In this document: positions 15,039 through 48,515 of the stretch, piece after piece
Layout of the letters: every line of letters starts with the position of its first letter
Numbering within the stretch: the stretch's first letter is position 1
Source of the DNA: Plumapathes pennacea
Taxonomy: Eukaryota > Cnidaria > Anthozoa > Antipatharia > Myriopathidae
Length of the DNA stretch: 64,000 bases
Direction of reading: 5' to 3'
Assembly (NCBI GenBank): GCA_964036295.1
Contig: OZ038469.1
Coordinates: 13,759,591-13,823,590, forward strand
The notes under the pieces: model-generated
What the model was told of the DNA's origin: nothing
Seen by the model: the letters and a program-made list of their open reading frames with translations, nothing else
Database searches by the model: none
Made by a program: the position numbers and the translations under genes

Positions 15039-15059
15039 TTGGATAAATTGTGCCGGTGT

Positions 15060-15140
15060 GACAGGAAATGTGTTCCCCCCGGAACACATTTCCTAGGATA
15101 TGTGTTCCCCCATCCGGAAATGTGTTCCCCCAGGAAACGT
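15060..15140. repeat. Cluster of GGAAATGTGTTCCCCC repeats
   Basis: Four GTGTTCCCCC words and the complement GGAACACATTTCC within 80 bp can form alternative hairpins. No function is evident. Confidence 0.6.
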
Positions 15141-15283
15141 TGAACATGCCGAAGGCATAATTGTGCCCTGCCCTTGTCAGGTATTCTGATGTCCAAAATT
15201 ACGACAATTCTCGATCAATTGTGACACTGCTTCTTTTGCATTGTGGGCTTATCTGCTCAAGACGCCTGTTTGTGTAGATACCA

Positions 15284-15289
15284 AATAAA
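15284..15289 (+). promoter_or_regulatory. Candidate poly(A) signal for the carrier gene
   Basis: AATAAA about 725 bp after the carrier stop codon, the first clear signal downstream. Confidence 0.4.
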
Positions 15290-15595
15290 TTACTCCACCG
15301 ATTTATGCACACTAGTTTTATTTATAACTGCAATTGGGAGTCTAGTATTGGCTCCATTAAACCGTAACATGATGTTCAGTCAGTTGTGTTTGCACGAGTC
15401 TCGGCGTCGGCGCATGTACTCGGGGCTAAAAGCTCCCAGACTTGAAACAAATGTTTATATACAGTCTACGGGTTATCAACTGTTTATCTCCGGCTGACTT
15501 TCTTGGGTGGCAGGCATGATCAGCAGAGCCGTTATTCATTATCGGTGGGAATTGAAGATAATTTCACGCATTTAACGTGATACGCACAAATCACA

Positions 15596-15721
15596 TCAGG
15601 GTCCAGTTGCATAAAAGATTAACGCCCGGTACCAGGCGTAAAAAACAATAGAAATATATTAAGTTCCATTGTTATAAACGCCTAGTCCCAAGCGTTAATA
15701 TTTTATGCAACTGGGCCCTGA
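15596..15721. mobile_element. Short MITE with TCAGGGTCCAGTTGCATAAA termini
   Basis: TCAGGGTCCAGTTGCATAAA at the left is mirrored by TTTATGCAACTGGGCCCTGA at the right. The 126-bp unit folds end to end. Confidence 0.85.
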
Positions 15722-16513
15722 TCATGCCATCATACGCCTCGGGTAGATGGCAGGTACAAAAGGTTTGAATCACCTACAGTTTGTGACTTCTTTGTCGCGG
15801 TTTAGGTGCTTTACGTGAACGGGGAAAGGCCGTGATTTCTTCGTTCTCTAGGCACTCAAGTAGGTGCACCCTCACCTTCACTTGATCAAAGTTTATATCT
15901 TTCAATAGTCTGTTTCCGCGTTCCTCTAGCGTCGACCTTCACTCTCAGAGATCTCTTTTCTTCTTTAGAGAACCTATCTGGATACTCTCCTCTTGCAACA
16001 TAATTATAGATAACACTATACTCCTTTGAATCCATCTTTGCTTCTACTCGCAGTTTACTGCTCTTCACTCCACAGAAACCCAATAACAATGTGTCAATCA
16101 TTGGCGTCATTACCTCACAACACAAAAGAAGGGATTTTATTCACGACACGGCGGGCTTTTTCAACGGGCAATTAATCTATACATTGTTAATTTGCATGCT
16201 TCAGATGATCAAGTCTTCCTTTGCTTAATGTTTTCATCTGTTATCGTTCTTTGTTTGAGGCGCGGTTTACACGGATGCATTTACACGGAAAAAGAAAAGG
16301 GGCCGTTTTCAAAACGGGGGAAAAGACCCCGCCCCACCCCCTCCCCCCGCCCCGTAATTTTGTCACTTGACCTCAGTCTCCCTTCTGCCATCAGTACAAA
16401 ATGGCGCCCGTGAACACCGTTCAACCGCATCGAATGAGACCGCCAGCTACGCAGGCTACCTGTGTCTTCGAATCGACGCAGTTTTATCACCAAACTTTTT
16501 CGTTTTTGTTTTC

Positions 16514-19500
16514 GTGTAGCCCTTACTATTTTCTCAAAATGCGGTCATTTTTCGCCCATCTCAGAATCACATGAAACTTTCAAGAATCGTTCCTGGGACT
16601 ATGCCGACGGGTTTTGCATAGTTTTTATAAACATTTAGAGCGCGCGTCGTGAAAAATTAGAGCAAATTACGGCAAATCGTGCACTAATTAAAACATCACA
16701 CCTTTCGAGCAAAGCAGCCAGATTCAAGCTGCTATATCTCGCCAACGGATGGAGATAGATAAAGCAAATGTATTGCAAAAAGTCTTCTTATAGTCCAATG
16801 AAGGTTTCCTGAAAGTTTCAAGAGTTTTCAATTTTTGGCCAAAATCGGCCAAAAACCCTGTGCTATAGCCTTAGTATTTTGTCAAAATTCCAAGATTTTT
16901 CGACCATCTCAGAATCGCATGAAACTTTCAGGAATCGTTGCTGGGACTATGCCGACGCTTTTCGCATAGTTTTTGTAAACTTTTAGACCGCGCGTCGTAA
17001 GATATTAAAGGAAATTAGAGCAAATCATACACTAATTAAAACATCACACCTTTCGAGCAAAGGAGCCAAATTCAAGCTGCTATATCTCGCCAACGGATGG
17101 AGATAGATAAAGCAAATGTATTGCAAAAACTCTTCTTATAGTCCAATGAAGGTTTCCTGAAAGTTTCAAGAGTTTTCAATTTTTGGCCAAAATCGGCCAA
17201 AAACCCTGTGCTATAGCCTTAGTATTTTGTCAAAATTCCAAGATTTTTCGACCATCTCAGAATCGCATGAAACTTTCAGGAATCGTTGCTGGGACTATGC
17301 CGACGCTTTTCGCATAGTTTTTGTAAACTTTTAGACCGCGCGTCGTAAGATATTAAAGCAAATTAGAGCAAATCATACACTAATTAAAACATCACACCTT
17401 TCCAGCAAAGGAGCCAAATTCAAGCTGCTATATCTCGCCAACGGATGGAGATAGATAAAGCAAATGTATTGCAAAAAGTCTTCTTATAGTCCAATGAAGG
17501 TTTCCTGAAAGTTTCAAGAGTTTTCAATTTTTGGCCAAAATCGGCCAAAAACCCTGTGCTATAGCCTTAGTATTTTGTCAAAATTCCAAGATTTTTCGAC
17601 CATCTCAGAATCGCATGAAACTTTCAGGAATCGTTGCTGGGACTATGCCGACGCTTTTCGCATAATTTTTGTAAACTTTTAGACCGCGCGTCGTAAGATA
17701 TTAAAGCAAATTAGAGCAAATCATACACTAATTAAAACATCACACCTTTCGAGCAAAGGAGCCAAATTCAAGCTGCTATATCTCGCCAACGGATGGAGAT
17801 AGATAAAGCAAATGTATTGCAAAAACTCTTCTTATAGTCCAATGAAGGTTTCCTGAAAGTTTCAAGAGTTTTCAATTTTTGGCCAAAATCGGCCAAAAAC
17901 CCTGTGCTATAGCCTTAGTATTTTGTCAAAATTCCAAGATTTTTCGACCATCTCAGAATCGCATAAAACTTTCAGGAATCGTTGCTGGGACTATGCCGAC
18001 GCTTTTCGCATAGTTTTTGTAAACTTTTAGACCGCGCGTCGTAAGATATCAAAGGAAATTAGAGCAAATCATACACTAATTAAAACATCACACCTTTCGA
18101 GCAAAGGAGCCAAATTCAAGCTGCTATATCTCGCCAACGGATGGAGATAGATAAAGCAAATGTATTGCAAAATGTCTTCTTATAGTCCAATGAAGGTGTC
18201 CTGAAAGTTTCAAGAGTTTTCAATTTTTGGCCAAAATCGGCCAAAAACCCTGTGCTATAGCCCTAGTATTTTGTCAAAATTCCAAGATTTTTCGACCATC
18301 TCAGAATCGCATGAAACTTTCAGGAATCGTTGCTGGGACTATGCCGACGCTTTTCGCATAGTTTTTGTAAACTTTTAGACCGCGCGTCGTAAGATATCAA
18401 ATGAAATTAGAGCAAATCATACACTAATTAAAACATCACACCTTTCGAGCAAAGCAGCCAAATTCAAGCTGCTATATCTCGCCAACGGATGGAGATAGAT
18501 AAAGCAAATGTATTGCAAAAACTCTTCTTATAGTCCAATGAAGGTTTCCTGAAAGTTTCAAGAGTTTTCAATTTTTGGCCAAAATCGGCCAAAAACCCTG
18601 TGCTATAGCCTTAGTATTTTGTCAAAATTCCAAGATTTTTCGACCATCTCAGAATTGCATGAAACTTTCAGGAATCGTTGCTGGGACTATGCCGACGCTT
18701 TTCGCATAGTTTTTGTAAACTTTTAGACCGCGCGTCGTAAGATAACAAAGGAAATTAGAGCAAATCATACACTAATTAAAACATCACACCTTTCGAGCAA
18801 AGGAGCCAAATTCAAGCTGCTATATCTCGCCAACGGATGGAAATAGATAAAGCAAATGTATTGCAAAAAGTCTTCTTATAGTCCAATGAAGGTTTCCTGA
18901 AAGTTTGAAGAGTTTTCAATTTTTGGCCAAAATCGGCCAAAAACCCTGTGCTATAGCCTTAGTATTTTGTCAAAATTCCAAGATTTTTCGACCATCTCAG
19001 AATCGCATGAAACTTTCAGGAATCGTTGCTGGGACTATGCCGACGCTTTTCGCATAGTTTTTGTAAACTTTTAGACCGCGCGTCGTAAGATATCAAAGGA
19101 AATTAGAGCAAATCATACACTAATTAAAACATCACACCTTTCGAGCAAAGCAGCCAAATTCAAGCTGCTATATCTCGCCAACGGATGGAGATAGATAAAG
19201 CAAATGTATTGCAAAAACTCTTCTTATAGTCCAATGAAGGTTTCCTGAAAGTTTCAAGAGTTTTCAATTTTTGGCCAAAATCGGCCAAAAACCCTGTGCT
19301 ATAGCCTTAGTATTTTGTCAAAATTCCAAGATTTTTCAACCATCTCAGAATCGCATGAAACTTTCAGGAATCGTTGCTGGGACTATGCCGACGCTTTTCG
19401 CATAGTTTTTGTAAACTTTTAGACCGCGCGTCGTAAGATATCAAAGGAAATTAGAGCAAATCATACACTAATTAAAACATCACACCTTTCGAGCAAAGGA

Positions 19501-22500
19501 GCCAAATTCAAGCTGCTATATCTCGCCAACGGATGGAGATAGATAAAGCAAATGTATTGCAAAAAGTCTTCTTATAGTCCAATGAAGGTTTCCTGAAAGT
19601 TTCAAGAGTTTTCAATTTTTGGCCAAAATCGGCCAAAAACCCTGTGCTATAACCTTAGTATTTTGTCAAAATTCCAAGATTTTTCGACCATCTCAGAATC
19701 GCATGAAACTTTCAGGAATCGTTGCTGGGACTATGCCGACGCTTTTCGCATAGTTTTTGTAAACTTTTAGACCGCGCGTCGTAAGATATCAAAAGAAATT
19801 AGAGCAAATCATACACTAATTAAAACATCACACCTTTCGAGCAAAGGAGCCAAATTCAAGCTGCTATATCTCGCCAACGGATGGAGATAGATAAAGAAAA
19901 TGTATTGCAAAAACTCTTCTTATAGTCCAATGAAGGTTTCCTGAAAGTTTCAAGAGTTTTCAATTTTTGGCCAAAATCGGCCAAAAACCCTGTGCTATAG
20001 CCTTAGTATTTTGTCAAAATTCCAAGATTTTTCGACCATCTCAGAATCGCATGAAACTTTCAGGAATCGTTGCTGGGACTATGCCGACGCTTTTCGCATA
20101 GTTTTTATAAACTTTTAGACCGCGCGTCGTAAGATATCAAATGAAATTAGAGCAAATCATACACTAATTAAAACATCACACCTTTCGAGCAAAGGAGCCA
20201 AATTCAAGCTGCTATATCTCGCCAACGGATGGAGATAGATAAAGCAAATGTATTGCAAAAACTCTTTTTATAGTCCAATGAAGGTTTCCTGAAAGTTTCA
20301 AGAGTTTTCAATTTTTGGCCAAAATCGGCCAAAAACCCTGTGCTATAGCCTTAGTATTTTGTCAAAATTCCAAGATTTTTCGACCATCTCAGAATCGCAT
20401 GAAACTTTCAGGAATCGTTGCTGGGACTATGCCGACGCTTTTCGCATAGTTTTTGTAAACTTTTAGACCGCGCGTCGTAAGATATCAAAGGAAATTAGAG
20501 CAAATCATACACTAATTAAAACATCACACCTTTCGAGCAAAGGAGCCAAATTCAAGCTGCTATATCTCGCTAACGGATGGAAATAGATAAAGCAAATGTA
20601 TTGCAAAAACTCTTCTTATAGTCCAATGAAGGTTTCCTGAAAGTTTCAAGAGTTTTCAATTTTTGGCCAAAATCGGCCAAAAACCCTGTGCTATAGCCTT
20701 AGTATTTTGTCAAAATTCCAAGATTTTTCGACCATCTCAGAATCGCATGAAACTTTCAGGAATCGTTGCTGGGACTATGCCGACGCTTTTCGCATAGTTT
20801 TTGTAAACTTTTAGACCGCGCGTCGTAAGATATCAAAGGAAATTAGAGCAAATCATACACTAATTAAAACATCACACCTTTCGAGCAAAGCAGCCAAATT
20901 CAAGCTGCTATATCTCGCCAACGGATGGAGATAGATAAAGCAAATGTATTGCAAAAAGTCTTCTTATAGTCCAATGAAGGTTTCCTGAAAGTTTCAAGAG
21001 TTTTCAATTTTTGGCCAAAATCGGCCAAAAACCCTGTGCTATAGCCTTAGTATTTTGTCAAAATTCCAAGATTTTTCGACCATCTCAGAATCGCATGAAA
21101 CTTTCAGGAATCGTTGCTGGGACTATGCCGACGCTTTTCGCATAGTTTTTGTAAACTTTTAGACCGCGCGTCGTAAGATATTAAAGCAAATTAGAGCAAA
21201 TCATACACTAATTAAAATATCACACCTTTCGAGCAAAGGAGCCAAATTCAAGCTGCTATATCTCGCCAACGGATGGAGATAGATAAAGCAAATGTATTGC
21301 AAAAACTCTTCTTATAGTCCAATGAAGGTTTCCTGAAAGTTTCAAGAGTTTTCAATTTTTGGCCAAAATCGGCCAAAAACCCTGTGCTATAGCCTTAGTA
21401 TTTTGTCAAAATTCCAAGATTTTTCGACCATCTCAGAATCGCATGAAACTTTCAGGAATCGTTGCTGGGACTATGCCGACGCTTTTCGCATAGTTTTTGT
21501 AAACTTTTAGACCGCGCGTCGTAAGATATTAAAGGAAATTAGAGCAAATCATACACTAATTAAAACATCACACCTTTCGAGCAAAGGAGCCAAATTCAAG
21601 CTGCTATATCTCGCCAACGGATGGAGATAGATAAAGCAAATGTATTGCAAAAACTCTTTTTATAGTCCAATGAAGGTTTCCTGAAAGTTTCAAGAGTTTT
21701 CAATTTTTGGCCAAAATCGGCCAAAAACCCTGTGCTATAGCCTTAGTATTTTGTCAAAATTCCAAGATTTTTCGACCATCTCAGAATCGCATGAAACTTT
21801 CAGGAATCGTTGCTGGGACTATGCCGACGCTTTTCGCATAGTTTTTGTAAACTTTTAGACCGCGCGTCGTAAGATATCAAATGAAATTAGAGCAAATCAT
21901 ACACTAATTAAAACATCACACCTTTCGAGCAAAGGAGCCAAATTCAAGCTGCTATATCTCGCCAACGGATGGAGATAGATAAAGCAAATGTATTGCAAAA
22001 ACTCTTCTTATAGTCCAATGAAGGTTTCCTGAAAGTTTGAAGAGTTTTCAATTTTTGGCCAAAATCGGCCAAAAACCCTGTGCTATAGCCTTAGTATTTT
22101 GTCAAAATTCCAAGATTTTTCGACCATCTCAGAATCGCATGAAACTTTCAGGAATCGTTGCTGGGACTATGTCGACGCTTTTCGCATAGTTTTTGTAAAC
22201 TTTTAGACCGCGCGTCGTAAGATATCAAATGAAATTAGAGCAAATCATACACTAATTAAAACATCACACCTTTCGAGCAAAGGAGCCAAATTCAAGCTGC
22301 TATATCTCGCCAACGGATGGAAATAGATAAAGCAAATGTATTGCAAAAACTCTTCTTATAGTCCAATGAAGGTTTCCTGAAAGTTTCAAGAGTTTTCAAT
22401 TTTTGGCCAAAATCGGCCAAAAACCCTGTGCTATAGCCTTAGTATTTTGTCAAAATTCCAAGATTTTTCGACCATCTCAGAATCGCATGAAACTTTCAGG

Positions 22501-25500
22501 AATCGTTGCTGGGACTATGTCGACGCTTTTCGCATAGTTTTTGTAAACTTTTAGACCGCGCGTCGTAAGATATCAAAGGAAATTAGAGCAAATCATACAC
22601 TAATTAAAACATCACACCTTTCGAGCAAAGGAGCCAAATTCAAGCTGCTATATCTCGCCAACGGATGGAGATAGATAAAGCAAATGTATTGCAAAAAGTC
22701 TTCTTATAGTCCAATGAAGGTTTCCTGAAAGTTTCAAGAGTTTTCAATTTTTGGCCAAAATCGGCCAAAAACCCTGTGCTATAGCCTTAGTATTTTGTCA
22801 AAATTCCAAGATTTTTCAACCATCTCAGAATCGCATGAAACTTTCAGGAATCGTTGCTGGGACTATGCCGACGCTTTTCGCATAGTTTTTGTAAACTTTT
22901 AGACCGCGCGTCGTAAGATATCAAAGGAAATTAGAGCAAATCATACACTAATTAAAACATCACACCTTTCGAGCAAAGGAGCCAAATTCAAGCTGCTATA
23001 TCTCGCCAACGGATGGAGATAGATAAAGCAAATGTATTGCAAAAAGTCTTCTTATAGTCCAATGAAGGTTTCCTGAAAGTTTCAAGAGTTTTCAATTTTT
23101 GGCCAAAATCGGCCAAAAACCCTGTGCTATAGCCTTAGTATTTTGTCAAAATTCCAAGATTTTTCGACCATCTCAGAATCGCATGAAACTTTCAGGAATC
23201 GTTGCTGGGACTATGCCGACGCTTTTCGCATAGTTTTTGTAAACTTTTAGACCGCGCGTCGTAAGATATCAAATGAAATTAGAGCAAATCATACACTAAT
23301 TAAAACATCACACCTTTCGAGCAAAGGAGCCAAATTCAAGCTGCTATATCTCGCCAACGGATGGAAATAGATAAAGCAAATGTATTGCAAAAACTCTTCT
23401 TATAGTCCAATGAAGGTTTCCTGAAAGTTTCAAGAGTTTTCAATTTTTGGCCAAAATCGGCCAAAAACCCTGTGCTATAGCCTTAGTATTTTGTCAAAAT
23501 TCCAAGATTTTTCGACCATCTCAGAATCGCATGAAACTTTCAGGAATCGTTGCTGGGACTATGCCGACGCTTTTCGCATAGTTTTTGTAAACTTTTAGAC
23601 CGCGCGTCGTAAGATATCAAAGGAAATTAGAGCAAATCATACACTAATTAAAACATCACACCTTTCGAGCAAAGCAGCCAAATTCAAGTTGCTATATCTC
23701 GCCAACGGATGGAGATAGATAAAGCAAATGTATTGCAAAAAGTCTTCTTATAGTCCAATGAAGGTTTCCTGAAAGTTTCAAGAGTTTTCAATTTTTGGCC
23801 AAAATCGGCCAAAAACCCTGTGCTATAGCCTTAGTATTTTGTCAAAATTCCAAGATTTTTCGACCATCTCAGAATCGCATGAAACTTTCAGGAATCGTTG
23901 CTGGGACTATGCCGACGCTTTTCGCATAGTTTTTGTAAACTTTTAGACCGCGCGTCGTAAGATATCAAAGGAAATTAGAGCAAATCATACACTAATTAAA
24001 ACATCACACCTTTCGAGCAAAGCAGCCAAATTCAAGTTGCTATATCTCGCCAACGGATGGAGATAGATAAAGCAAATGTATTGCAAAAAGTCTTCTTATA
24101 GTCCAATGAAGGTTTCCTGAAAGTTTCAAGAGTTTTCAATTTTTGGCCAAAATCGGCCAAAAACCCTGTGCTATAGCCTTAGTATTTTGTCAAAATTCCA
24201 AGATTTTTCGACCATCTCAGAATCGCATGAAACTTTCAGGAATCGTTGCTGGGACTATGCCGACGCTTTTCGCATAGTTTTTGTAAACTTTTAGACCGCG
24301 CGTCGTAAGATATTAAAGCAAATTAGAGCAAATCATACACTAATTAAAATATCACACCTTTCGAGCAAAGGAGCCAAATTCAAGCTGCTATATCTCGCCA
24401 ACGGATGGAGATAGATAAAGCAAATGTATTGCAAAAAGTCTTCTTATAGTCCAATGAAGGTTTCCTGAAAGTTTCAAGAGTTTTCAATTTTTGGCCAAAA
24501 TCGGCCAAAAACCCTGTGCTATAGCCTTAGTATTTTGTCAAAATTCCAAGATTTTTCGACCATCTCAGAATCGCATGAAACTTTCAGGAATCGTTGCTGG
24601 GACTATGCCGACGCTTTTCGCATAGTTTTTGTAAACTTTTAGACCGCGCGTCGTAAGATATTAAAGCAAATTAGAGCAAATCATACACTAATTAAAACAT
24701 CACACCTTTCGAGCAAAGGAGCCAAATTCAAGCTGCTATATCTCGCCAACGGATGGAGATAGATAAAGCAAATGTATTGCAAAAACTCTTCTTATAGTCC
24801 AATGAAGGTTTCCTGAAAGTTTGAAGAGTTTTCAATTTTTGGCCAAAATCGGCCAAAAACCCTGTGCTATAGCCTTAGTATTTTGTCAAAATTCCAAGAT
24901 TTTTCGACCATCTCAGAATCGCATGAAACTTTCAGGAATCGTTGCTGGGACTATGCCGACGCTTTTCGCATAGTTTTTGTAAACTTTTAGACCGCGCGTC
25001 GTAAGATATCAAAGGAAATTAGAGCAAATCATACACTAATTAAAACATCACACCTTTCGAGCAAAGCAGCCAAATTCAAGCTGCTATATCTCGCCAACGG
25101 ATGGAAATAGATAAAGCAAATGTATTGCAAAAAGTCTTCTTATAGTCCAATGAAGGTTTCCTGAAAGTTTGAAGAGTTTTCAATTTTTGGCCAAAATCGG
25201 CCAAAAACCCTGTGCTATAGCCTTAGTATTTTGTCAAAATTCCAAGATTTTTCGACCATCTCAGAATCGCATGAAACTTTCAGGAATCGTTGCTGGGACT
25301 ATGCCGACGCTTTTCGCATAGTTTTTGTAAACTTTTAGACCGCGCGTCGTAAGATATCAAAGGAAATTAGAGCAAATCATACACTAATTAAAACATCACA
25401 CCTTTCGAGCAAAGGAGCCAAATTCAAGCTGCTATATCTCGCCAACGGATGGAGATAGATAAAGCAAATGTATTGCAAAAACTCTTCTTATAGTCCAATG

Positions 25501-27245
25501 AAGGTTTCCTGAAAGTTTCAAGAGTTTTCAATTTTTGGCCAAAATCGACCAAAAACCCTGTGCTATAGCCTTAGTATTTTGTCAAAATTCCAAGATTTTT
25601 CGACCATCTCAGAATCGCATGAAACTTTCAGGAATCGTTGCTGGGACTATGCCGACGCTTTTCGCATAGTTTTTGTTAACTTTTAGACCGCGCGTCGTAA
25701 GATATTAAAGGAAATTAGAGCAAATCATACACTAATTAAAATATCACACCTTTCGAGAAAAGGAGCCAAATTTAAGCTGCTATATCTCGCCAACGGATGG
25801 AGATAGATAAAGCAAATGTATTGCAAAAAGTCTTCTTATAGTCCAATGAAGGTTTCCTGAAAGTTTCAAGAGTTTTCAATTTTTGGCCAAAATCGGCCAA
25901 AAACCCTGTGCTATAGCCTTAGTATTTTGTCAAAATTCCAAGATTTTTCGACCATCTCAGAATCGCATGAAACTTTCAGGAATCGTTGCTGGGACTATGC
26001 CGACGCTTTTCGCATAGTTTTTGTAAACTTTTAGACCGCGCGTCGTAAGATATCAAAGGAAATTAGAGCAAATCATACACTAATTAAAATATCACACCTT
26101 TCGAGAAAAGGAGCCAAATTCAAGCTGCTATATCTCGCCAACGGATGGAGATAGATAAAGCAAATGTATTGCAAAAACTCTTCTTATAGTCCAATGAAGG
26201 TTTCCTGAAAGTTTCAAGAGTTTTCAATTTTTGGCCAAAATCGGCCAAAAACCCTGTGCTATAGCCCTAGTATTTTGTCAAAATTCCAAGATTTTTCGAC
26301 CATCTCAGAATCGCATGAAACTTTCAAGAATCGTTGCTTGGACTATGGCGACGCTTTTCGCATAGTTTTTGTAAACTTTTAGACCGCGCGTCGTAAGATA
26401 TCAAAGGAAATTAGAGCAAATCATACACTAATTAAAACATCACACCTTTCGAGCAAAGGAGCCAAATTCAAGCTGCTATATCTCGCCAACGGATGGAGAT
26501 AGATAAAGCAAATGTATTGCAAAAACTCTTCTTATAGTCCAATGAAGGTTTCCTGAAAGTTTCAAGAGTTTTCAATTTTTGGCCAAAATCGGCCAAAAAC
26601 CCTGTGCTATAGCCTTAGTATTTTGTCAAAATTCCAAGATTTTTCGACCATCTCAGAATCGCATGAAACTTTCAGGAATCGTTGCTGGGACTATGCCGAC
26701 GCTTTTCGCATAGTTTTTGTAAACTTTTAGACCGCGCGTCGTAAGATATTAAAGCAAATTAGAGCAAATCATACACTAATTAAAATATCACACCTTTCGA
26801 GCAAAGCAGCCAAATTCAAGCTGCTATATCTCGCCAACGGATGGAGATAGATAAAGCAAATGTATTGCAAAAACTCTTCTTATAGTCCAATGAAGGTTTC
26901 CTGAAAGTTTCAAGAGTTTTCAATTTTTGGCCAAAATCGGCCAAAAACCCTGTGCTATAGCCTTAGTATTTTGTCAAAATTCCAAGATTTTTCGACCATC
27001 TCAGAATCGCATGAAACTTTCAAGAATCGTTGCGTGGACTATGCCGACGCTTTTCGCATAGTTTTTGTAAACTTTTAGACCGCGCGTCGTAAGATATTAA
27101 AGGAAATTAGAGCAAATCATACACTAATTAAAACATCACACCTTTCGAGCAAAGGAGCCAAATTCAAGCTGCTATATCTCGCCAACGGATGGAGATAGAT
27201 AAAGCAAATGTATTGCAAAAAGTCTTCTTATAGTCCAATGAAGGT
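16514..27245 (+). repeat. 348-bp satellite DNA array, about 31 monomers
   Basis: A tandem array of 10,732 bp. The landmark CTGGGACTATG recurs at 16593, 16941, 17289 and so on to 27033 (there GTGGACTATG), which is 30 exact periods of 348 bp with no net insertion or deletion. Most monomers differ by only a few substitutions; recurrent variable sites are AAAAAG/AAAAAC before TCTTCTT, GGAGCC/GCAGCC, and GATATTAAA/GATATCAAA. The first monomer is clearly diverged. The right edge is an abrupt break after AGTCCAATGAAGGT. Because 348 is divisible by 3, stops recur in every frame, and no long reading frame exists on either strand. Each monomer holds four inverted repeats (see findings). I do not recognise the family. 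Confidence 0.97.
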
Positions 27246-28390
27246 TATGAAGTTTCGCTTCATATGCACTTTAAGAGGGGATGTCGGTAAAAATCGTATG
27301 GTATGTCTGATTATCTCAGGTTCTCGTCATTTTCATCATTTTAGAAGACTGTAATTTTGTTTTAAGGGTAAGGTGGCGACTGTCTTTTCCGATTGTTTCG
27401 TTGTCGCCGGAGTGAGCAGTCCAGTGCGTGACCTTTGTCTGAGCTTGTAAATGTGTCACAAAAGTGTGGATTGAAAGGCGGAGGCATTTACAGCAGTGCC
27501 CGCTAAATTACCCAAAAGGTAAAGTATCGGTTTATTACTACTTAGTAAAACGCTAGTTCAGCTACAAATCATTCTGGAGGACGTTTCACCTCGCTAAAGT
27601 GGACGCTTTTCGCAATATATATGCAAATTTTTAACGTTTATTTACTATTACATCAGTTTTTTTTTTCAATAAAGAAAGATAGAGTTACCAAAGGTGTCAA
27701 AGTTTTGAGAGAAAGTGCTTAAAAGAAATACATTTGTGTAATCAGACTAACCACAGCCAAAATTTCATAGTATTTGAAGTACCCGCGCATGGTGAAAATT
27801 CGCTTCATTTTAGACAAATTATGACAATGAAATGTGACTGAAATATGACCTCCGTTATTAATTTACCACTAGTTCACAGATAATGGTATTCATTGAACGA
27901 TCTTCTGAGAAGAAAGTTAAATACCTATTTAATAAATAAACAACTAGTACAGAGCCCTTGGTGCATTTGTTTGTGAGAACGAGAGTGATTTTTTTGACCC
28001 TCGAGAATCGTTGTTTCCCCTGAGAATCGGCCAAATTACGTTATTCCAAATTTTCTCCCAAAGGAGGTGAAATCTGAACAAACCAACTACATCACGCTTT
28101 TTTACCTACTAATGCCTACAACTGACCAAAGTATGAGCGATTTCGATTTTTTGAGTTTGGCCGCCGATTGCCACATTTGTTCGATTTTTGCAGACATCCG
28201 CTCTTAAGTATGAATCGCAGTAAACAATTAGAAAAATAGGATAGTTTTATGCCGGATAACCCAAACAAAATACAGCACATTGGATCTCCACTGTTCACAA
28301 AGAAAAGTTATTTATCCAAACTATTTATATCTTTTGTAAAAAAAAAAAAAAAAAAAAATGAAAAAGAAATTTGAAGTTGACCACTTAATA
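27246..28390. other. Gene-free sequence right of the satellite
   Basis: No gene or known repeat recognised. It opens with a small ATGAAG-TTTCG-CTTCAT hairpin at the satellite edge and includes a run of about 20 A near 28338. Short open frames here lack any family motif. Confidence 0.5.
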
Positions 28391-29389: not shown

Positions 29390-32300
29390 CTACACCATCA
29401 CGCCTCTGTCCGCTTCCCCGATAAGGGGTCGAGTTTCACTATTTCCAGACTCGCTGTCCGTTTCACTGTGAAAACTTTCTGAGCGAGACAGCGGGCTATG
29501 TTCGACGCCAGAGGTCGCAACCTGAACATGCGTAGTGTCACCACTATCGCCGTCCGCCAATGGATTACTTACGATATTGATCTGTCGCTCGGAGTCGCTC
29601 GACGGCTCGTACAAAGAACTGTCGACTGCTGCGATCGCGTTCGGACTGTCCCGAACACCGGCCGAGAGATCCTCGTTGACCGTCGCGTCATTGTTGTTAG
29701 TGTTCGTCGACCGCTCGGCTGCTTGCGGCACGACCAAGTCAAACGGTGGTGGTGATCGCTCCACTTGGCTCATCGCCTCGTCGTACGAAGGCAAAATGAA
29801 TTGCACGTCACTAGTGTACGCGGCGATGAATGCAATGCGGTCGTCGTCGCCATAGTGACGGCCGCGGGAGGAATGGTGACGCACTCGTCTCCGCCGTGCC
29901 AGCTTCTTCAGGCAAATAAGAACGGACAGTAGAATGACCAACGCACCCAGGGTTGAGCCCGCACTGGCAGTGACTATGGTCAGCGTGTCAAGGTCCTGGT
30001 TGCGACGGGGAGTTTCGCCTGTCACAAGGTCCGGCTCGTCTGTTGGCTCTGGCACACATCGAAGAGAGAACACTGGTATCAGCCGAGTGAGCAAAGACAA
30101 TTTTAAATACAATATGCTCGTTTAAAATCAGAGTACCGTAAATGCTCTAACAAGCCCCCTCTACAAGGTCAGTTTTCGAAATAAGCCCCATTTTTATGCT
30201 GCTGACTTTGAGCACCAAAATTAGTAGAGAAACAAAACAAATGACGCGCATCAGATGCTTGGTAATATATTTTTTAACTTTACATTTCCCACATCTAACT
30301 TCACACAGTATTTTGTTGACGAAGAGTAACCTCTTGTTGTCATCTCGTTTTGATTGAATTTGTTGATTTAACTATTAATTCTCAAAGCATCACTCATACA
30401 TTTTTCTCTTAAAAGGTTGGGAGAATCTTTGAACTTGGGAGTGAAAGGATTAAACAACTGGGCCGGGGAAAAACCATTATTAAACCTACCTTCACAATCT
30501 GGCTGATGGTTCTCGAACTTGAAAGTTTTGCCACGATCCTTGCAAAGTTCTTTATAGACAGACAGGGTGACACATTTCGGGATCGACGAACCATGCCAGT
30601 ACCCGCTGCCATCTTCAGTCGCCTTGCACGTTTGTTTTGCGGATTCCTCAAATATGTAGTACTGTGACTCGCAAGAATACTTTACCACTGTATTATACGG
30701 GTACCGACCGTGACTGGGTTGATCAAGGTGCCCGTGCGGTATACGCCATGGCTCCCCACAAACAACGGCTAAAACAAACAAACAAACAAACAAACAAACA
30801 AGTAAATAGACCAAAGATACCAAAGATATTTGTTCGGGTCGTTGCCGTTCGCCAAGTGTACACAGTGGAATCGTTCTGTACGTAACTCACAGCGTAACGC
30901 GTGGCCACTTACTAATATTAGACTTTTCATTCAGTGCGCATCACTTCTACTTTTGAACTTCTTATTCACTGCCCACTGCGTAGCCACTTGGCGATACAGC
31001 TTCTAGATCTAAACCTTTCATTCAGTGCGCATCACAGCTTCTTTTGAACTTCTTATTCACTGCCCACTGCGTAGCCACTTGGCGATACAGCTTCTAGATT
31101 TAAACCTTTCATTCAGTGCGCATCACAGCTTCTACTTTTGAACTTCTTATTCACTGCCCACTGCGTAGCCACTTGGCGATACAGCTTCTAGATTCAAACC
31201 TTTCATTCAGTGCGCATCACAGCTTCTTTTGAACTTCTTATTCACTGCCTACTGCGTAGCCACTTGGCGATACAGCTTCTAGATTTAAACCTTTCATTCA
31301 GTGCGCATCACAGCTTCTTTTGAACTTCTTATTCACTGCCCACTGCGTAGCCACTTGGCGATACAGCTTCTAGATTTAAACCTTTCATTCAGTGCGCATC
31401 ACAGCTTCTACTTTTGAACTTCTTATTCACTGCCCACTGCGTAGCCACTTGGCGATACAGCTTCTAGATTTAAACCTTTCATTCAGTGCGCATCACAGCT
31501 TCTACTTTTGAACTTCTTATTCACTGCCCACTGCGTAGCCACTTGGCGATACAGCGGCGTATTTTCCATATCCTCACTAGTGAAGATACCGTTGGCATCA
31601 TTTCCCGCTTTTGCACGGTTGTTTGTGCAATTTCTCGCAAAACACTCGTGTCTAATGTAATAAAAAGAAAATTACACAGCGGCTTGAAGATATTGATTTT
31701 ATTTTCTCGTGGTAAAAACAATATTTTACTCACTCACTCGCGAAGCGCTCGTTCGTAAAATATTGTTTTTACCACTCGAAAATAAAATTCATATCTTCGC
31801 GCCGCCGTGTAATATCCTCTATGTAAGTAACTTGTAAAACTAAGCTTAAATCTAAGAACACTTGCTTTCAGCCTAGAGGGGGAGGGGGAAGGGAGTGTTT
31901 AGCGGAGGGGGAGGGGAGTGTTGCACTTTCTGATGTAGTCCTCGAGAAGACTCTTCTTGTACGACTCTTGTACTTACCTTTACAATCAGGGTTTCTCATT
32001 CCAGACCAGCGTCCTGATGGCAGGCACGTCCTGCTGGAAGGGCCATTGAGGTGATATCCTTCATTGCATTCAAAAGTGACAAACGTGTAAATCCGGTTGT
32101 CCGATGTATTGGTCGTCTCACGACCATGACTGATGGGGAATTTTCCTGGGCGGCCGCAACCATAGATTTCTGCAGGGGGAAAGATGCAGAGAGAAAACAA
32201 GGGTTTCACTGGTCAGTATGCGGTCTGTTAATATTGTGATCTCACATGAAAATCACACCCTTATGCAGACCAAAACGACCAAATATTTGCCCCATGCAAC

Positions 32301-35085: not shown

Positions 35086-38000
35086 AAAAAAAGGTATGGA
35101 AAATCTGTATATTTTGGTCCCCCACCCCCTGAACTTCATACAGTTGATGTAAGTGCCCACTAAGTACAGGCCCACTAAAAAAATACTTTGGGTATGGTCA
35201 AACTGGCAACAGGTTCTACAAAATAATGCAGCAAAGCAAACATTCTACTGTTCATTTGAAAAAATAATCATCTAGTAAAGGGATGCATGTTTGTGACGCT
35301 GCTGTCATGCACCAGACGCAACAGTATCTTCTTTTGATAGAGCGGTTTTTGGATGACTGTCGAAAGTAATTGTGTGATTGCTTTGGTTTTGTGTTTGCTT
35401 CGCTTTCGGATTGGTCCACATGAGTTTGTCAGCATACTCAGCCAATCAGGAACAAAACCAAAACAAAAACCAAACACTTCTCACGCAAGCGATGGCGTGT
35501 ACTCGCACTGCTGATTGGAAAGTAAAACCAAACGCAAGACCAAACGCAAATTACTTTGGCTTCCAATTGGCTGAACTGTTTTCTCTCAGTCTCTGTGATT
35601 GGCCTGTGTGATTACTTTGGTTTTGGTTTTCGACAGTCATCCGAAAACGGTTCTATTCAACATGGAAAATGTCAATTCAGGCTGTCCATTCAATACAGGT
35701 GACAAAAAAAAAATTCTCATTGGGACTATGAAAGGTGTCTGTGTCTGCTCTAATAGAGGTAAAGTATACAAAGTATCTCCTTGACTAGATTTTTGGCACT
35801 TTTGACAAAAATCTACTCAATACAAAGAGAAGTTCAATGTTCTTACTCTAATCGCAGCAGCATACCTTCACAGGTGACGTTGCCGGCCCAACCACCATCC
35901 TTTTCACAAATCTTCTCCAGTGATCCTACAGATATGTAGCCCGGCGCACAAGTATACGTCACTGATGTGCCAACAAAATGAGATGTCACACGACCCCGAG
36001 ATGCATTGGGTACAAGGGGTGGATCCTGACCACAACTTTTAGCTAGATATAATATGAAGAAATAAACAAGGCATCATGAAAAAGCTAAGTTCTTCTTACT
36101 GTATGATGTATACTTAATGAAAAACTTAAAGAGAAAATTAAATTGAAGTTTGAAAAATAAAGTTTTTAGGTTGACTGACTCTTTCACGCCCAAGCTCAAA
36201 ATGCAGATTCTCCCAACCTTAAGAATAAAATTTACAAGTAATGCAGAGAATTGATAATTGATAGTTTAATCAGCTTTCACTGAAGCGGATCAGTGGTTGG
36301 GAGTGAAAGGATTAAACTACCATTTCTCACAACATCACTCATACACATTGTACATCTTCTTGAAGAGTAGAGGTCAAGAGAATATGCATTTTGAGCTTGG
36401 GAGTGAAAAGACTATACTGTTCTAGACTACAGGAAGTCCCTCTGTTTCCCTCCAAGATTGTATTACGAGAGCTGTTGTGAGCACAGAAGAGTATGGCGCT
36501 AGCAACAGGGCCGGCTCTGGCAACACGATCTTGAAGGGAAAAGGAGGGACTGCTTGCAGTCTGCACTAATCTAATTTCACATTCCAAGTGCAAAGTATGC
36601 TTTTCCTGTATGTCTTGCTGTCTATGGTCTGACTACCACAACTATTTTGTATCTTTCCGTTCCTCTCTTTCTATCAATATCCCCTCTTCTTTTCTTGTCA
36701 TACCAATGCACTGTGGTATCTTTCCATTCCACTTTCCATCTTTATCACAATATAGTTTCTTTGCCCCTTCCAAATTGAAAGTGGGATCACAATCAAATCG
36801 CACATCTGAACCAGGTAGAAATGGGCCGGGACCAGCAGGGTTTCTTGATCCATTGGCAGGTGTACCAGGATCGCCACACTTTACTGAAGGTAACACATGA
36901 ACACAATATTACTGAATGGCAAAGTTTAATTAACTTATGTGCTCAGTTGTCCCAGGGACATCACAAGCCATGTTTTCACACACCCGATCCAATCATCATC
37001 ATGCAGCAATAAATAGCATTTTTTACCACAACCCACTAGTTTCTCGCTCTCTGATTGGTTGATTAACCGTGGTAAATAAGAGTCCAGACAACGATGTGAC
37101 GCCAGCGTGTCACTTTTTGCAGCGAAAATACAGCAAAATTTTCTTGTATATTTCTAAATAGTGTGGTAAAAAACAAATTTCCACTGGTTTGCCGTGGTGT
37201 GGACTCTTATTTACCACGATTTACGCCATCACAAGGTCAAAATTTGTTGTGGACTCACTCGGCAAAGCGCCTCGTGAGTCCACAACATTTTGACCATGTG
37301 AAGACGTAAATCATGGTAAATAAGAGTCCACACCACGGCAAACCAGTGGAAATTTATTAAATATCACTTATCTCAGTTGAGCCATTGTTTGTACAAGAAT
37401 CAAACAACCATTGTGAGACAACTGGACATGTGACCATTAATTTTGAACCCTGATTGTTAACACGACCATACTAATTACATCTTTTAGTAAATAGTCCTAG
37501 CCTGAGCTTAATAATTAACTGATCAATACATTTCAATTTTATCGTGTGGCCGTTCTTACCATGGTCTGTACAATTATGTATCATGGCAAATGGTTTGAAC
37601 CCAGGAGTGTGAACAGTAGGTTGGTTGTGATCGTCCGGGTTAGAGTAGTCTCCAGAAAGACTGTTGTTGGTGACTGATGTTTCGACTACCTGAGCGGAAG
37701 TCATCTTCAGAGTCAAGTGGAAAGTATTCGTCAGATGGCGGTATATGTGTCTCTGGTTGTTGAAGTGATTGGTCCGTTATGTCGGCCTATGGTTGGTCAA
37801 GTCGGCTTGGTTGTGTTTCGTTATTGGTCAGTTGATGTTCTTTTGTCCTGTTGATTAGTCTATTGTTTGTTCGGTTGCATTTGATGTCATCTATCAGTCA
37901 TTTGTAAGGTGCCGGTAATTGTTGGCATCTGTTGAGTGGTTTCCGTTCTAAGTTTGTGTACCAACTTTCCAGTGTAAGTCGTTGGCAGTAGTTGGTACTG

Positions 38001-39832
38001 TGGCTGATGCATTCAGCAAAGTCCCAGTTGATGTCGTGTTTAGTCTGTTGGTGGTGTTCAGAAATGTGATTTCTGATGTCGCCGTTTCTGGGAGCTCGTT
38101 TGTGTTCAGTAAGTCTCATGTTCAGGTTTCTGCCAGTTTCACCGATGTAGGTGGCTTTGCAGTCAGTACAAGATATTCTGTATACTGTTCCCTGTCTGTT
38201 GATGGGTTCTTCTTTGTCCTTTACGTTGGTCAGTAAGTTGCGTAGAGTCGTGATGGGTTTGTGGGTTTGTGCTTCAACTGACCAATAACGAAACACAACC
38301 AAGCCGACTTGACCAACCATAGGCCGACATAACGGACCAATCACTTCAACAACCAGAGACATATATACCGCCACCTGACGAATACTTTTCACTTGACTCT
38401 GAAGATGACTTCCGCTTAGGTAGTCGAAATGTCAGTCACCAACAACAGTCTTTCTGGAGACTACTCTAACCCGGACGATCACAACCAACCTACAATTATG
38501 TTATCCTATAATATGGCAAGATATTAATTTGATAGCTATGATCTCTAGCTTGTAGATACATGAAGCCACTTCACATCAGGGCATGCCTTTAACTGAACCC
38601 CTCCCAGAGCCCCAACCCCGAGAGAGACATCCGTGATTTATAAAAATCCCATTCTCGGGAGCTCAATCAGAGGTATCCTAATGTGAAGTGGCAATAATTC
38701 ACAAGCATTAGCTACAATCATGGTCAAAGGTCACTGAGCATATGAGTAGAGAAACCCATAGGGAGTTCATATTCCTTGGTTTAACTGGCCTCTCCCCTCT
38801 ATTCAATGTTGGAAAAGGATGAACATCAGGATGGGAAAAGAGGAGAGGTAAGTGGTGGGGGGGGATTAATTTGTAATCGATCCCAACAAGTTTGATTGAC
38901 CATGATTGTAGGTTTCTCATATGCATGAAAGCTGAATTAAACACTTAAATCTGGTTCACATGACATGTAAATGTCTTGCATGTGCAAGAAAAATGAAAAA
39001 GCTTACAATAATTCTCTTTTATTTCACAAATTGACATGAGTATTTCTTGCATTTTGTACCTACTCTATAGATATGTGTTTGCACTAGCTATAGGTGTTTA
39101 ACAAATGTGAGCCATATATCTATGCAGCCTAGCTTAGTGTAACATTCTTACTGCCTAGTATGCATCTTCCAAACAAATGGGCATGAAAATTTAAAGAATC
39201 AACTTGAAAGACAATGAAAAGCATCTGATGCCCATTTCCTGACCACAGCCTAATCTTGGGCAACTTTAAGGAAGCTTGCCACACAATAAATTTAAATATT
39301 GTTTGAGCTGTTAAACACACTATTAGATAATGCTGTACAAAATCATGTACAAACTTCAAATCCCAAACTTATAGCCTTTTTATCAAATCAAGCAGCAATC
39401 TGTTATATTCTTAGGATTAAATTTGAGAGGTTTCAGTCAAAATTAAGGCCTTCATGTACGTATAATTAGAAGCTGCGTTATTTGTTTAGCATAAAAAGTC
39501 GTACAAAACAGTAAGTACCTGTCACGAACTAACACATCACTATGAACATGGTTACAATACTTCGATGACTTTTTCGACGACTCAATCGCAATATAAAAGG
39601 CACAAAGAGTATGTTCTTCGCTAAGGTACAAGGCTGTATTCGAGAATTTCTCGAGTAAACGAGGTTTCAACTCGTAAAACGATACTACGGCCATGTACCC
39701 GGTATATACGCAGTACAATCAAATATAATGAATCCTTACATGCATCTATCACTTACCAGAATCGCCACCACCAACTTGGGACAAGAAACAAAGAAATGGC
39801 ACCAAGAGCGACTGTTTGAGAGAACCATCCAT
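29390..39832 (-). CDS. Type I membrane protein with six sushi (CCP) domains, SUSD-like
   Basis: Eight exons on the minus strand: 39832-39757, 36883-36704, 36042-35866, 33806-33624, 33491-33315, 32169-31978, 30768-30490 and 30048-29390. They give 1923 bp and 640 aa. Residues 1-25 form a signal peptide (MDGSLKQSLLVPFLCFLSQ). Exons 2-7 each encode one sushi domain with four cysteines, and every intron is phase 1, as is typical of sushi exons. Exon 7 adds a second pair of cysteines after its sushi. A transmembrane helix (about 446-468, LGALVILLSVLICL) is followed by RRRR and an acidic, Ser-rich tail of about 170 residues with LPSYDEAM (507-514), a possible WW-domain/NEDD4-binding motif. Sushi domains bind complement or other ligands, and SUSD4/SUSD6 have comparable layouts, but orthology is not proven. 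The role is probably cell-surface recognition. Confidence 0.88.
30362..30450. mobile_element. CTTTCACTCCC-family MITE, partial copy
   Basis: A one-ended copy with TTAACTATTAATTCTC and, at the end, GAACTTGGGAGTGAAAGG, in the last intron of the sushi gene. Confidence 0.6.
30773..30801. repeat. (AAAC)n microsatellite
   Basis: AAACAAAC tract directly beside the acceptor of sushi exon 7. On the coding strand it supplies the TTTG-rich polypyrimidine-like region before the TTTTAG acceptor. Confidence 0.85.
30927..31555 (+). repeat. Minisatellite, 91/94-bp unit, about seven copies
   Basis: The word CATTCAGTGCGCATCAC recurs at 30928, 31019, 31110, 31204, 31295, 31386 and 31480. Units are 91 bp, or 94 bp when CTTCTTTTG is extended to CTTCTACTTTTG. 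It lies in a sushi-gene intron. Copies are almost identical, so the array is young. Confidence 0.95.
31668..31813. mobile_element. Inverted-repeat MITE joined to the minisatellite
   Basis: AAATTACACAGCGGC at the left is mirrored by GCCGCCGTGTAAT at the right, with internal AAAACAATATTTTAC matching GTAAAATATTGTTTT. A GCGGCGTATTTTC fragment precedes it at the minisatellite end (about 31554). Confidence 0.7.
32312..32627 (-). mobile_element. Family-B MITE, second copy (inverted)
   Basis: The reverse-orientation copy of 13034-13384, starting TTATTACACGTC and ending CCGTGTAATAA. It lies in a sushi-gene intron. It has a few indels relative to the first copy. Confidence 0.85.
33003..33232 (+). repeat. 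Diverged interspersed repeat, copy 1 of 2
   Basis: Similar over about 200 bp to 58225-58432. Shared words include TTACTTAACAGACACTC, GGAGTAAAAA and TGCTACTG/CGCTACTGCGCATG. The class is unknown. Confidence 0.5.
33886..34020. repeat. Degenerate tandem AATAGGGTATAGATTTGGTC repeats
   Basis: Three or four imperfect copies of a unit of about 35-45 bp built on TAGTC(T)GAAATAGGGTATAGATTTG. Intronic. Confidence 0.5.
34170..35092 (+). mobile_element. LINE (non-LTR retrotransposon) 3' fragment with (TAAA)n tail
   Basis: The open stretch to 34853 reads as the C-terminus of a LINE reverse transcriptase: an IQLWNNL region, then the zinc-knuckle-like CICGKSNETVEHFLLFCPRF. Similarity continues upstream (VMMYKIFNKLVPPYL) past an in-frame stop near 34279, so the copy is dead. 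After about 170 bp of 3' UTR it ends in about 17 TAAA/AATA units (35022-35092), a typical LINE microsatellite tail. 5'-truncated; it lies antisense in a sushi-gene intron. The clade is not determined. Confidence 0.8.
35337..35656. mobile_element. MITE with ATAGAGCGGTTTTTGGATGA termini
   Basis: The left terminus (ATAGAGCGGTTTTTGGATGA, then CTGTCGAAA) is mirrored by the right TTTTCGACAGTCATCCGAAA plus ACGGTTCTAT. Subterminal CCAATCAG/CTGATTGG words recur inside. 320 bp, no coding capacity. Confidence 0.85.
36181..36410. mobile_element. CTTTCACTCCC-family MITE, full copy
   Basis: Begins CTTTCACGCCCAAGCTCAAA and ends TTGAGCTTGGGAGTGAAAAG, in a sushi-gene intron. Confidence 0.75.
37036..37360. 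mobile_element. Fold-back MITE with AAACCAGTGG/CCACTGGTTT arms, copy 1
   Basis: Inverted arms of about 80 bp (37185-37265 and 37275-37357) carry CACTGGTTTGCCGTGGTGTG and its complement. An adjoining 150-bp module begins ACTAGTTTCTCGCTCTCTGA. A second copy in the opposite orientation is at 45612-45890. Confidence 0.8.
37671..37715 (-). ncRNA. Hammerhead-type ribozyme motif in the 3' Penelope terminal repeat
   Basis: On the minus strand, stem I TGACT/AGTCA flanks the core CTGAAGA. Stem II is GACT/AGTC, then GAAA, and the cleavage triplet position reads ATC. Stem III is only GAAAC-ATC, where GAAAC-GTC would be expected. Penelope-like elements are known to carry such minimal type I hammerheads. 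The G-to-A change probably weakens stem III. Confidence 0.6.
38394..38438 (+). ncRNA. Hammerhead-type ribozyme motif in the inverted 5' terminal repeat
   Basis: The mirror copy on the plus strand has the same stem I TGACT/AGTCA, core CTGAAGA, stem II GACT/AGTC and GAAA. Here stem III reads GAAAT-GTC. It is the inverse-repeat partner of 37671-37715. Confidence 0.6.
38563..38695. mobile_element. Short MITE with GCCACTTCACAT termini
   Basis: GCCACTTCACATCAGG at the left is mirrored by CCTAATGTGAAGTGGC at the right, 133 bp. Confidence 0.75.
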
Positions 39833-46247: not shown

Positions 46248-48515
46248 TCAATGGGAATAAGGTTCAACAGAGAAAATCTGAATGCGATCGTTCCCCCAAT
46301 CACTGACGACTATCTGATCCTCTTTCAAGATGGCCACTCCCATAGGATTGGAGAACTGACCAAGTGCGCTACCCTTGGAGCCGAAAGAATTCAAGCAAGT
46401 TCCATCAAAGTCGAAAAATTGCAGCCGATGGTTATCCAGGTCGCACAAAATGATGCGGTCGTCTGCATCGACGACAAGTCCACGGGGACTAAACATCTCT
46501 CCCTTTTTCGCGCCAGGTCTACCGATCGTCCTCACGTAATCGCCCTGGGCGTCGAATACTTTTAGGACGTTGTTGCCCGTATCTGAGACGACGAAGCGTT
46601 TTGTCTTTTCGTGGAAAATCGCGTCCCTCGGGTGCTTTAGCTTCTCTCTGGACAGATCGCCAAACACGAAGAGAAACCTTCCCTCAGCCGAGAACACCTG
46701 AACGCGGTGGTTATTCCAGTCCGTCACCACAATGCGACCCTTCGGGTCCACGAAAACGCCCGACGGACCATCGAACTCTCCGTCGTTGCGGCCTCGGGTG
46801 CCGAACTTTCTCTTCATCTTGCCGTTCTTGCGGCTGAAGATCTGGATTCTGTGGTTGTCCCTGTCCGCCACCACGATGTGTTTCTCGCTCTTGTCAAAAG
46901 CCACCCCACCCGGGTAGTTCAACTGCCCATCTCCGCACCCCTCCCCTCCAATGTCCATCACGCTTCTTCCACAGGGGTCGAGCAGGTGAATGCAGTGTTT
47001 GCGCGTGTCCGAGATGGCGATTTCGCCGGTGCTGCTCACTGCTATACCACGTGGTTGTGTGAACAGCCCTGCGCCTGCGCCGTGGCGTGATTCGTAAGCT
47101 TTCACCGGAACCAGAACTTGAGGCATAACCGACAAGCAGTGCGGGCTCTGACGAATTTCTTTATTACCGACCCGGATGCAGACTGTGTACTGTCCTGCCA
47201 CGTGAGGGGTATATACCACGTCATAAATGCCATTCTCGTTGTCCCTAATATCACTGCTGATTATGGTTCCGTCTGTCTTCGATATCTTCACGCTAGGACG
47301 GTCAATGCTGCTGTAATACGCGTTGCCGTTCTTGTCGCGTGTCGTCAACGTAAAAATCGTTTCCTCCCCGACGTACGATTTACTGACACCTTCGCCCTCG
47401 GCGGACGTTGACTGTGGGTCCGTGTTGCTCATGGCAATGTAACCAAACGAACAGCACTCTAAAGTACTCACCGTCTCGAGGTTTGGCATGTATTCTACGC
47501 ATGTGCTTTGCCCAATATTAGTGTCGATCTTCAGCTGACCTAATTCTTGAAGCCGCAGGCTCACATGGTTCGTGAGGGACAGAATTTCAGCGGGAAAACT
47601 CCTTTCCAAAAATGGGTTGGTGAAGCCTAAGGCGCCCTCAGCTTGAGAGAGCAAGAACTCAAACGTGTTTCGCTGAGACAGAAGCTCCTCGGTTTTTTCG
47701 CGGCGCATAGTCTCCAGCTGGTCTGTCATCTCCTTCTCGTGATCTTGAATGATCTTGATCATTCGCTCAACTTTGAGGCTGAGCTGTCTCTTGACCGAGT
47801 CAATCCTGTTATCAACCTCGCTGATCTTATCTGACAGGTTCTTCATTCCAGTTTGAATAGCAAGGACCCGCTCTTGGACTTTAGCCGACTCTTTTTTGAT
47901 TGACAACCTCTTGGCTTCAACCACCTCTGAGATACCCACAGTTGAGTGCATATCTTCCTCCGCCATATTGCACAGACCGCAGACAAATTTGTCGCAGTCC
48001 GTGCAATAAAATTCCACTTCCTCCAGATCTTCCCGCTCGTGTTCACAGTACTTAGGTCTGGCGTACAGTTCGTCGTAATCTTGGTTCTCAAACTCGCGGA
48101 GTTTCCTGGCTCTGTGATGACTCATATCCAACATGCGGCCGTGTGCATCCATGCATCTTGAACACATAAACATGTCGCAGTCAAAGCAGAAGGCAGACGG
48201 CTTGACGATTTCGTGACATTTTCCACACTCGTACTTACGCCGTTCGAAGTTTCTGCTCACGTAAACGTCCAACAGCCGATTGAGATGGAAAGCGGGTGGG
48301 AACTGCGAACAGTCCTCGACTCGTTCTGGTTTGGATGCTTCGGCTTGACACACTGGACAAACGAAACTGTCTCTTGATGGATATTCCTTCACCAACTTTT
48401 TTACGCAGTGCATAGAGAGACTGTGCAAACAAGGCAAAAGTCTGGGATCAGTGAAAACCTTGGCACAGTCCGGGCATTTGATTTGTTCCTCTAAGGTCTC
48501 TGACCATTCATTCAT
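46248..48515 (-). CDS. TRIM-NHL protein, TRIM71/LIN-41-like, intronless, atypical RING
   Basis: 755 aa in one exon. Order: RING (14-57), B-box 1 (about 96-135), B-box 2 (about 156-196), coiled coil (about 200-300), filamin/Ig-like domain (about 370-475) and six NHL repeats (about 478-755; e.g. GRIVVTDWNNHRVQVFS). Two B-boxes plus filamin and NHL match the TRIM71/LIN-41 layout; family members are E3 ubiquitin ligases and mRNA-binding repressors. The fifth RING zinc ligand is Ser34 (PCLHSLSMHC, against PCLHTFCCEC in the paralogue at 53533), so ligase activity is doubtful. The first Met gives the normal N-terminus directly before the RING. It is head-to-head with the paralogue at 53533-56303. 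Subfamily assignment is by architecture; such genes are often expanded in cnidarians. Confidence 0.93.
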   Translation of the reverse strand: MNEWSETLEEQIKCPDCAKVFTDPRLLPCLHSLSMHCVKKLVKEYPSRDSFVCPVCQAEASKPERVEDCSQFPPAFHLNRLLDVYVSRNFERRKYECGKCHEIVKPSAFCFDCDMFMCSRCMDAHGRMLDMSHHRARKLREFENQDYDELYARPKYCEHEREDLEEVEFYCTDCDKFVCGLCNMAEEDMHSTVGISEVVEAKRLSIKKESAKVQERVLAIQTGMKNLSDKISEVDNRIDSVKRQLSLKVERMIKIIQDHEKEMTDQLETMRREKTEELLSQRNTFEFLLSQAEGALGFTNPFLERSFPAEILSLTNHVSLRLQELGQLKIDTNIGQSTCVEYMPNLETVSTLECCSFGYIAMSNTDPQSTSAEGEGVSKSYVGEETIFTLTTRDKNGNAYYSSIDRPSVKISKTDGTIISSDIRDNENGIYDVVYTPHVAGQYTVCIRVGNKEIRQSPHCLSVMPQVLVPVKAYESRHGAGAGLFTQPRGIAVSSTGEIAISDTRKHCIHLLDPCGRSVMDIGGEGCGDGQLNYPGGVAFDKSEKHIVVADRDNHRIQIFSRKNGKMKRKFGTRGRNDGEFDGPSGVFVDPKGRIVVTDWNNHRVQVFSAEGRFLFVFGDLSREKLKHPRDAIFHEKTKRFVVSDTGNNVLKVFDAQGDYVRTIGRPGAKKGEMFSPRGLVVDADDRIILCDLDNHRLQFFDFDGTCLNSFGSKGSALGQFSNPMGVAILKEDQIVVSDWGNDRIQIFSVEPYSH

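Follow-up and report, generated by a model that had tools for sequence, protein, structure and literature searches.

Background

Satellite DNAs are often centromeric or pericentromeric, and retrozymes occur in tandem form. Among the closest described systems to the array reported here, TCAST1 of Tribolium and the 1.688/359-bp repeats of Drosophila are satellites with repeats also reported outside heterochromatin. A review (PMC10048060) describes short Drosophila satellite arrays in such locations, and states that homogenisation is reduced at the ends of satellite arrays. Tandem repeats inside transposable elements are known as well, in the HINEs of the oyster (PMC7492417).

The window, that is the whole stretch of 64,000 nt that was analysed, corresponds to C8:13759591-13823590 of an assembly of 290 Mb in 24 contigs, which was searched. 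The tandem array it contains falls into the familiar category of dispersed satellite DNA and is ordinary apart from one minor oddity, a cryptic 11-bp periodicity. Very probably it is one of many arrays belonging to a non-coding satellite family that is spread over the chromosomes, formed locally by an illegitimate join with subsequent amplification and homogenisation. The subfamilies of this dispersed satellite differ in unit length; a description of this family was not found in the literature searched, repeat libraries (Dfam, RepBase) lying outside that search.

Structure of the array in the window

The array and its parts were delimited as follows.

16521-27246, forward strand: tandem satellite array (TRF); cut in register, it yields 30 complete monomers of 348 bp and a remainder of 286 bp
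16521-16868, forward strand: first monomer (monomer 0), diverged; 30 substitutions and 0 indels relative to the consensus
16869-26960, forward strand: 29 homogenised monomers (monomers 1-29), mean pairwise difference 1.39%
26961-27246, forward strand: last monomer, partial, monomer positions 1-286

TRF analysis of the array returned a period of 348 with 30.8 copies, 98% matches and 0% indels, and the GC content was 0.37-0.38. An earlier note on this DNA had placed the start of the array at 16514; the array itself is real, and its start is better set at 16521 (TRF). The same note had described a perfect 348-bp register, with point substitutions and no indels even across a diverged first monomer, and all of this was borne out. 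The interval from 16593 to 27033 equals exactly 30 × 348 bp, and gaps were absent from all monomers and from the 286-base tail when these were cut in register from 16521. Relative to the consensus of monomers 1-29, those monomers carried 1-6 substitutions each, monomer 0 carried 30 and the tail 5. A 33-nt core had 25 exact occurrences in the window (0 in 100 shuffles). The head-to-tail, non-coding organisation of the repeats is that of satellite DNA, and the identification as a satellite array is supported by TRF and the in-register monomers.

In all six frames the consensus was interrupted by stops, 3-7 per frame, and had no long ORF; a coding monomer was thus rejected, and the divisibility of 348 by three, pointed out earlier, has no coding meaning. 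An inverted pair of 31 bp was present (monomer positions 52-82 with 270-300, 84%). A palindrome spanning the whole monomer was not supported (local score 24, where 300 shuffles averaged 14.9 and reached at most 29; global score 35 versus 21.6, sd 9.3, in 40 shuffles). No Rfam family reached its gathering score over the window, the only matches at 16500-17600 being three sub-threshold ones to snoZ163 (E 0.32, 4.1 and 4.1), and a tRNA search returned none.

Protein-coding ORFs were located on both sides of the array, as had been claimed. Further along the window, a 91-bp minisatellite of ~7 copies (30918-31555) adjoins a sushi-domain ORF and shows small indels, unlike the 348-bp array. A 220-bp inverted repeat (37616-38493, 97%) overlaps an ORF with a GIY-YIG domain and is possibly part of a mobile element. 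TRIM-like coding sequence was seen at 46248-48515 and 53440-56303. One ORF of 755 codons matches filamin and NHL and, more weakly, RING and B-box; two further, neighbouring ORFs carry RING/filamin and NHL.

The satellite family in the assembly

A 38-nt monomer core, allowing up to 3 mismatches, matched the assembly 4998 times (0 matches for the reversed-pattern control), a high copy number as in satellite DNA. The "single array" of the earlier note is therefore single within the window, and not genome-wide. At one core match per 348 bp, the family would amount to ~1.7 Mb, or 0.6% of the genome.

Searching the whole assembly with the monomer revealed full-monomer relatives of 82-96% identity on C3, C5, C6 and C9 (best 30 of 1037 candidates), while an array on C2 was ~80-83% identical to the window monomer. 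A 334-bp subfamily was found on C4, C5, C6, C7, C8 and C10, with monomers 97-99% identical to the query (best 39 of 418 candidates); its likeness between chromosomes was about the same as within arrays. Another search recovered monomers of 338 bp, on C3 and C5, along with 348-bp relatives on C10 (best 36 of 811 candidates), and a further pattern used for sampling arrays had one match, on C4. When the prokaryote and viral collections were searched for relatives with exact patterns of 24-26 nt, there was no hit. Two C9 loci (C9:16009001-16013000 and C9:16473001-16477000) carry mirror-image satellite arrays, arranged head to head with the same turning point (monomer positions 287-288/324). More diverged satellite-like sequence adjoins several arrays (loci L022, L023, L066 and L070), which suggests an older superfamily.

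Homogenisation within the array

Monomers of the window array differed from one another by 1.39% on average, compared with ~80-96% identity to other arrays, as is characteristic of concerted evolution. Genome-wide, a diagnostic variant gave 23 exact matches, every one inside the window array; with one mismatch there were 42, distributed between the window array (7), an array at C3:17.4 Mb (20) and other places (15). This array at C3:17.40 Mb was the nearest relative among the matches listed (full monomers 91-96%). In an 11.7-kb stretch at that locus nothing matched the parts of the window that lie beyond the array, a weak comparison given that the C3 flanks are mostly satellite (361/700 and 686/700 bases).

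The four-gamete test failed in 28/91 site pairs within the window array, and the similarity of monomers was independent of the distance between them (lags 1-14, largest |z| 1.96 at lag 9). Free exchange between monomers would produce both results; the four-gamete failure may also stem from recurrent mutation. No lag from 1 to 14 stood out, and a higher-order, multi-monomer period was rejected. The longest run invariant between arrays measured 23 bp, which lies between the permutation 95% and 99% levels (21 and 25) and is a weak signal.

At the 30 sites where monomer 0 differs, the consensus of nine other arrays was matched by monomer 0 at 10 and by the interior at 19; some of the monomer 0 states (positions 23-26) recurred in at least two of these nine arrays. 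As judged from these sequence states, monomer 0 is in part of another or older type and in part decayed, and not simply an ancestral relic. Taken together, the confinement of the exact variant to the window array, the mixing of variants and the diverged first monomer fit local homogenisation.

Flanking elements and proposed origin of the array

Three dispersed elements border the array.

15048-16519, forward strand: element A, a dispersed repeat cut off at the array start, with roughly its last 230 bp missing
16316-16459, strand unassigned: dispersed repeat of 144 bp, an insertion within element A
27271-28207, strand unassigned: non-autonomous DNA element of 937 bp, TTAA-flanked, with short terminal inverted repeats (TTAA element)

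Parts of element A matched copies elsewhere at ~85-97%, and its missing ~230 bp were not found to the right of the array up to 29500. The TTAA element begins 24 bp past the array end, lacks ~130 bp near 27740 that other copies carry, and has dispersed relatives elsewhere in the genome.

We propose that the satellite arrived here through illegitimate joining inside element A, whether as an array fragment, as a circle or through break repair, and that one derived monomer would then have been amplified. Unequal exchange and gene conversion would keep the array interior alike. Such whole-unit processes would preserve unit length without selection and would act least strongly at the edge of the array. 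A function encoded in the sequence would not be needed, any effect being presumably passive, via local chromatin.

A broader alternative is that the satellite superfamily goes back to an 11-bp unit, now decayed, and that blocks of array edge and TTAA element were copied between chromosomes, the interior of each array later being replaced by a new subfamily (334, 338 or 348 bp). The left end of the TTAA element was present at a minimum of five loci including the window (best 40 of 115 candidates in one search, 4/4 in another), and satellite lay directly to the left of 5/5 copies found with that end. The satellite broke off near monomer position 204-208 at three of the five loci, at 44 in one and at 286 in the window. 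Relatives of the element without this left end had satellite nearby in 1/16 compared (C1:19.77 Mb). The junction shared by three edges suggests that at least these were copied as one piece. This counts against the proposed join: arrays and TTAA element may have been copied together rather than joined at random.

As to the 11-bp unit, identity at an 11-bp shift within the monomer (16869-17216) was 38%, above the best shift of all 400 shuffles, and the periodicity was present in monomer positions 31-120 (P = 0.002) and 241-348 (P = 0.014) and not in 121-240. In six related diverged stretches, lag 11 was the best in 3/6 (P = 0.2, 0.02 and 0.007) and lag 22 in 2/6. At lag 11, one of 137 other window segments attained 0.377; a high value there (0.349) was also seen for the 91-bp minisatellite. 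A common 11-bp ancestral unit is therefore not demonstrated: a unit derived from one monomer region did not predict the second (P = 0.25), and near 11 bp the power of AA/TT did not exceed that of shuffles. We consider this broader history unlikely; if true, it would mean a satellite family renewing itself from shared edges.

It is also quite improbable that the array is an internal tandem repeat of a transposable element of the Helentron type (HINE) and moves with it. The oyster precedent speaks for such a carrier, as do the five loci where this TTAA element borders satellite, three of which have one junction in common. Against it, arrays end at many different monomer positions (e.g. 1, 44, 58, 105, 204, 223, 246, 269, 286 and 317; BLAST ends), and the TTAA element possesses two ends of its own, with the array outside it. 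The common left and right flanks of HINEs and Helentrons were not seen among 17 flanks compared, the TTAA element occurring on one side only, at five loci. With that element set aside, these flanks, which came from eleven arrays and covered the two sides of only six, shared nothing beyond satellite-like sequence, one 32-bp match and one repeat of two C9 loci.

Distribution along the chromosomes

The earlier note had raised the possibility of a centromeric or heterochromatic outpost, and dense satellite clusters on C9 and C7 would suit an array belonging to centromeric or pericentromeric heterochromatin. However, among the matches listed the family occupied at least 49 places on at least 10 contigs, 14 of them on C3, and 30/49 places fell in the outer 40% of their contig; C11 and C12 were absent. 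These places are matches listed by several searches and merged within 100 kb; some are single matches, so that not each need be an array, and they are biased toward relatives of the query sequences. Among them, the one main location per chromosome expected of a centromeric satellite was not observed, and the window array itself has protein-coding ORFs on both sides. A centromeric or pericentromeric setting is thus not supported and appears very unlikely.

Unit length

The earlier note had further suggested that length is more constrained than sequence, and that 348 bp is near two nucleosome repeats; neither idea gained support. Related arrays have units of 334, 335, 338 or 348 bp with indels present, and 111 full monomers from nine other arrays were mostly 348, 334 or 335 bp long, the others ranging from 324 to 350. 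In terms of distinct changes, the window array (32 substitutions, 0 indels) did not differ from six of the nine other arrays (254 and 13; Fisher P = 0.37, or P = 0.14 with the 30 substitutions of monomer 0 added), two of which, C3:1.02 and C3:17.24 Mb, entered by their homogeneous part only; window monomer 0 was included only in the second version. Amplification and exchange in whole units would keep the register by themselves, without selection, so that a perfect register across 30 units requires no length constraint. Selection on unit length, e.g. for nucleosome phasing or protein spacing, can be drawn from the 0 indels in 30 units and the cryptic 11-bp periodicity, but is hardly credible in view of the other unit lengths and their indels, of a 174-bp shift identity (25%) equal to background, of a 10-10.6 bp AA/TT/TA signal equal to the shuffle mean, and of an AA/TT power that, around 11 bp, stayed under the 95% level of shuffles.

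Comparison with known systems

Like the window family, retrozyme-type repeats are short, non-coding and found in animal genomes (PMC7229834). They carry hammerhead ribozymes, whereas in the window array Rfam identified no hammerhead, either at gathering score over the window or at E up to 5 in 16500-17600. The central repeats of Cg_HINE in Crassostrea gigas also form satellite-like arrays dispersed along chromosomes; they have element-specific flanks on both sides, units of mostly 140-180 bp and short arrays (PMC7492417), while no common two-sided flanks were found for the window family among the flanks compared.

Further parallels are TCAST1 in Tribolium and the 1.688/359-bp satellite in Drosophila. 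No large heterochromatic block was identified for the window family, and the likeness is one of description rather than of compared sequence: in all three, satellite repeats are dispersed near genes and, for the window family presumably, outside heterochromatin.
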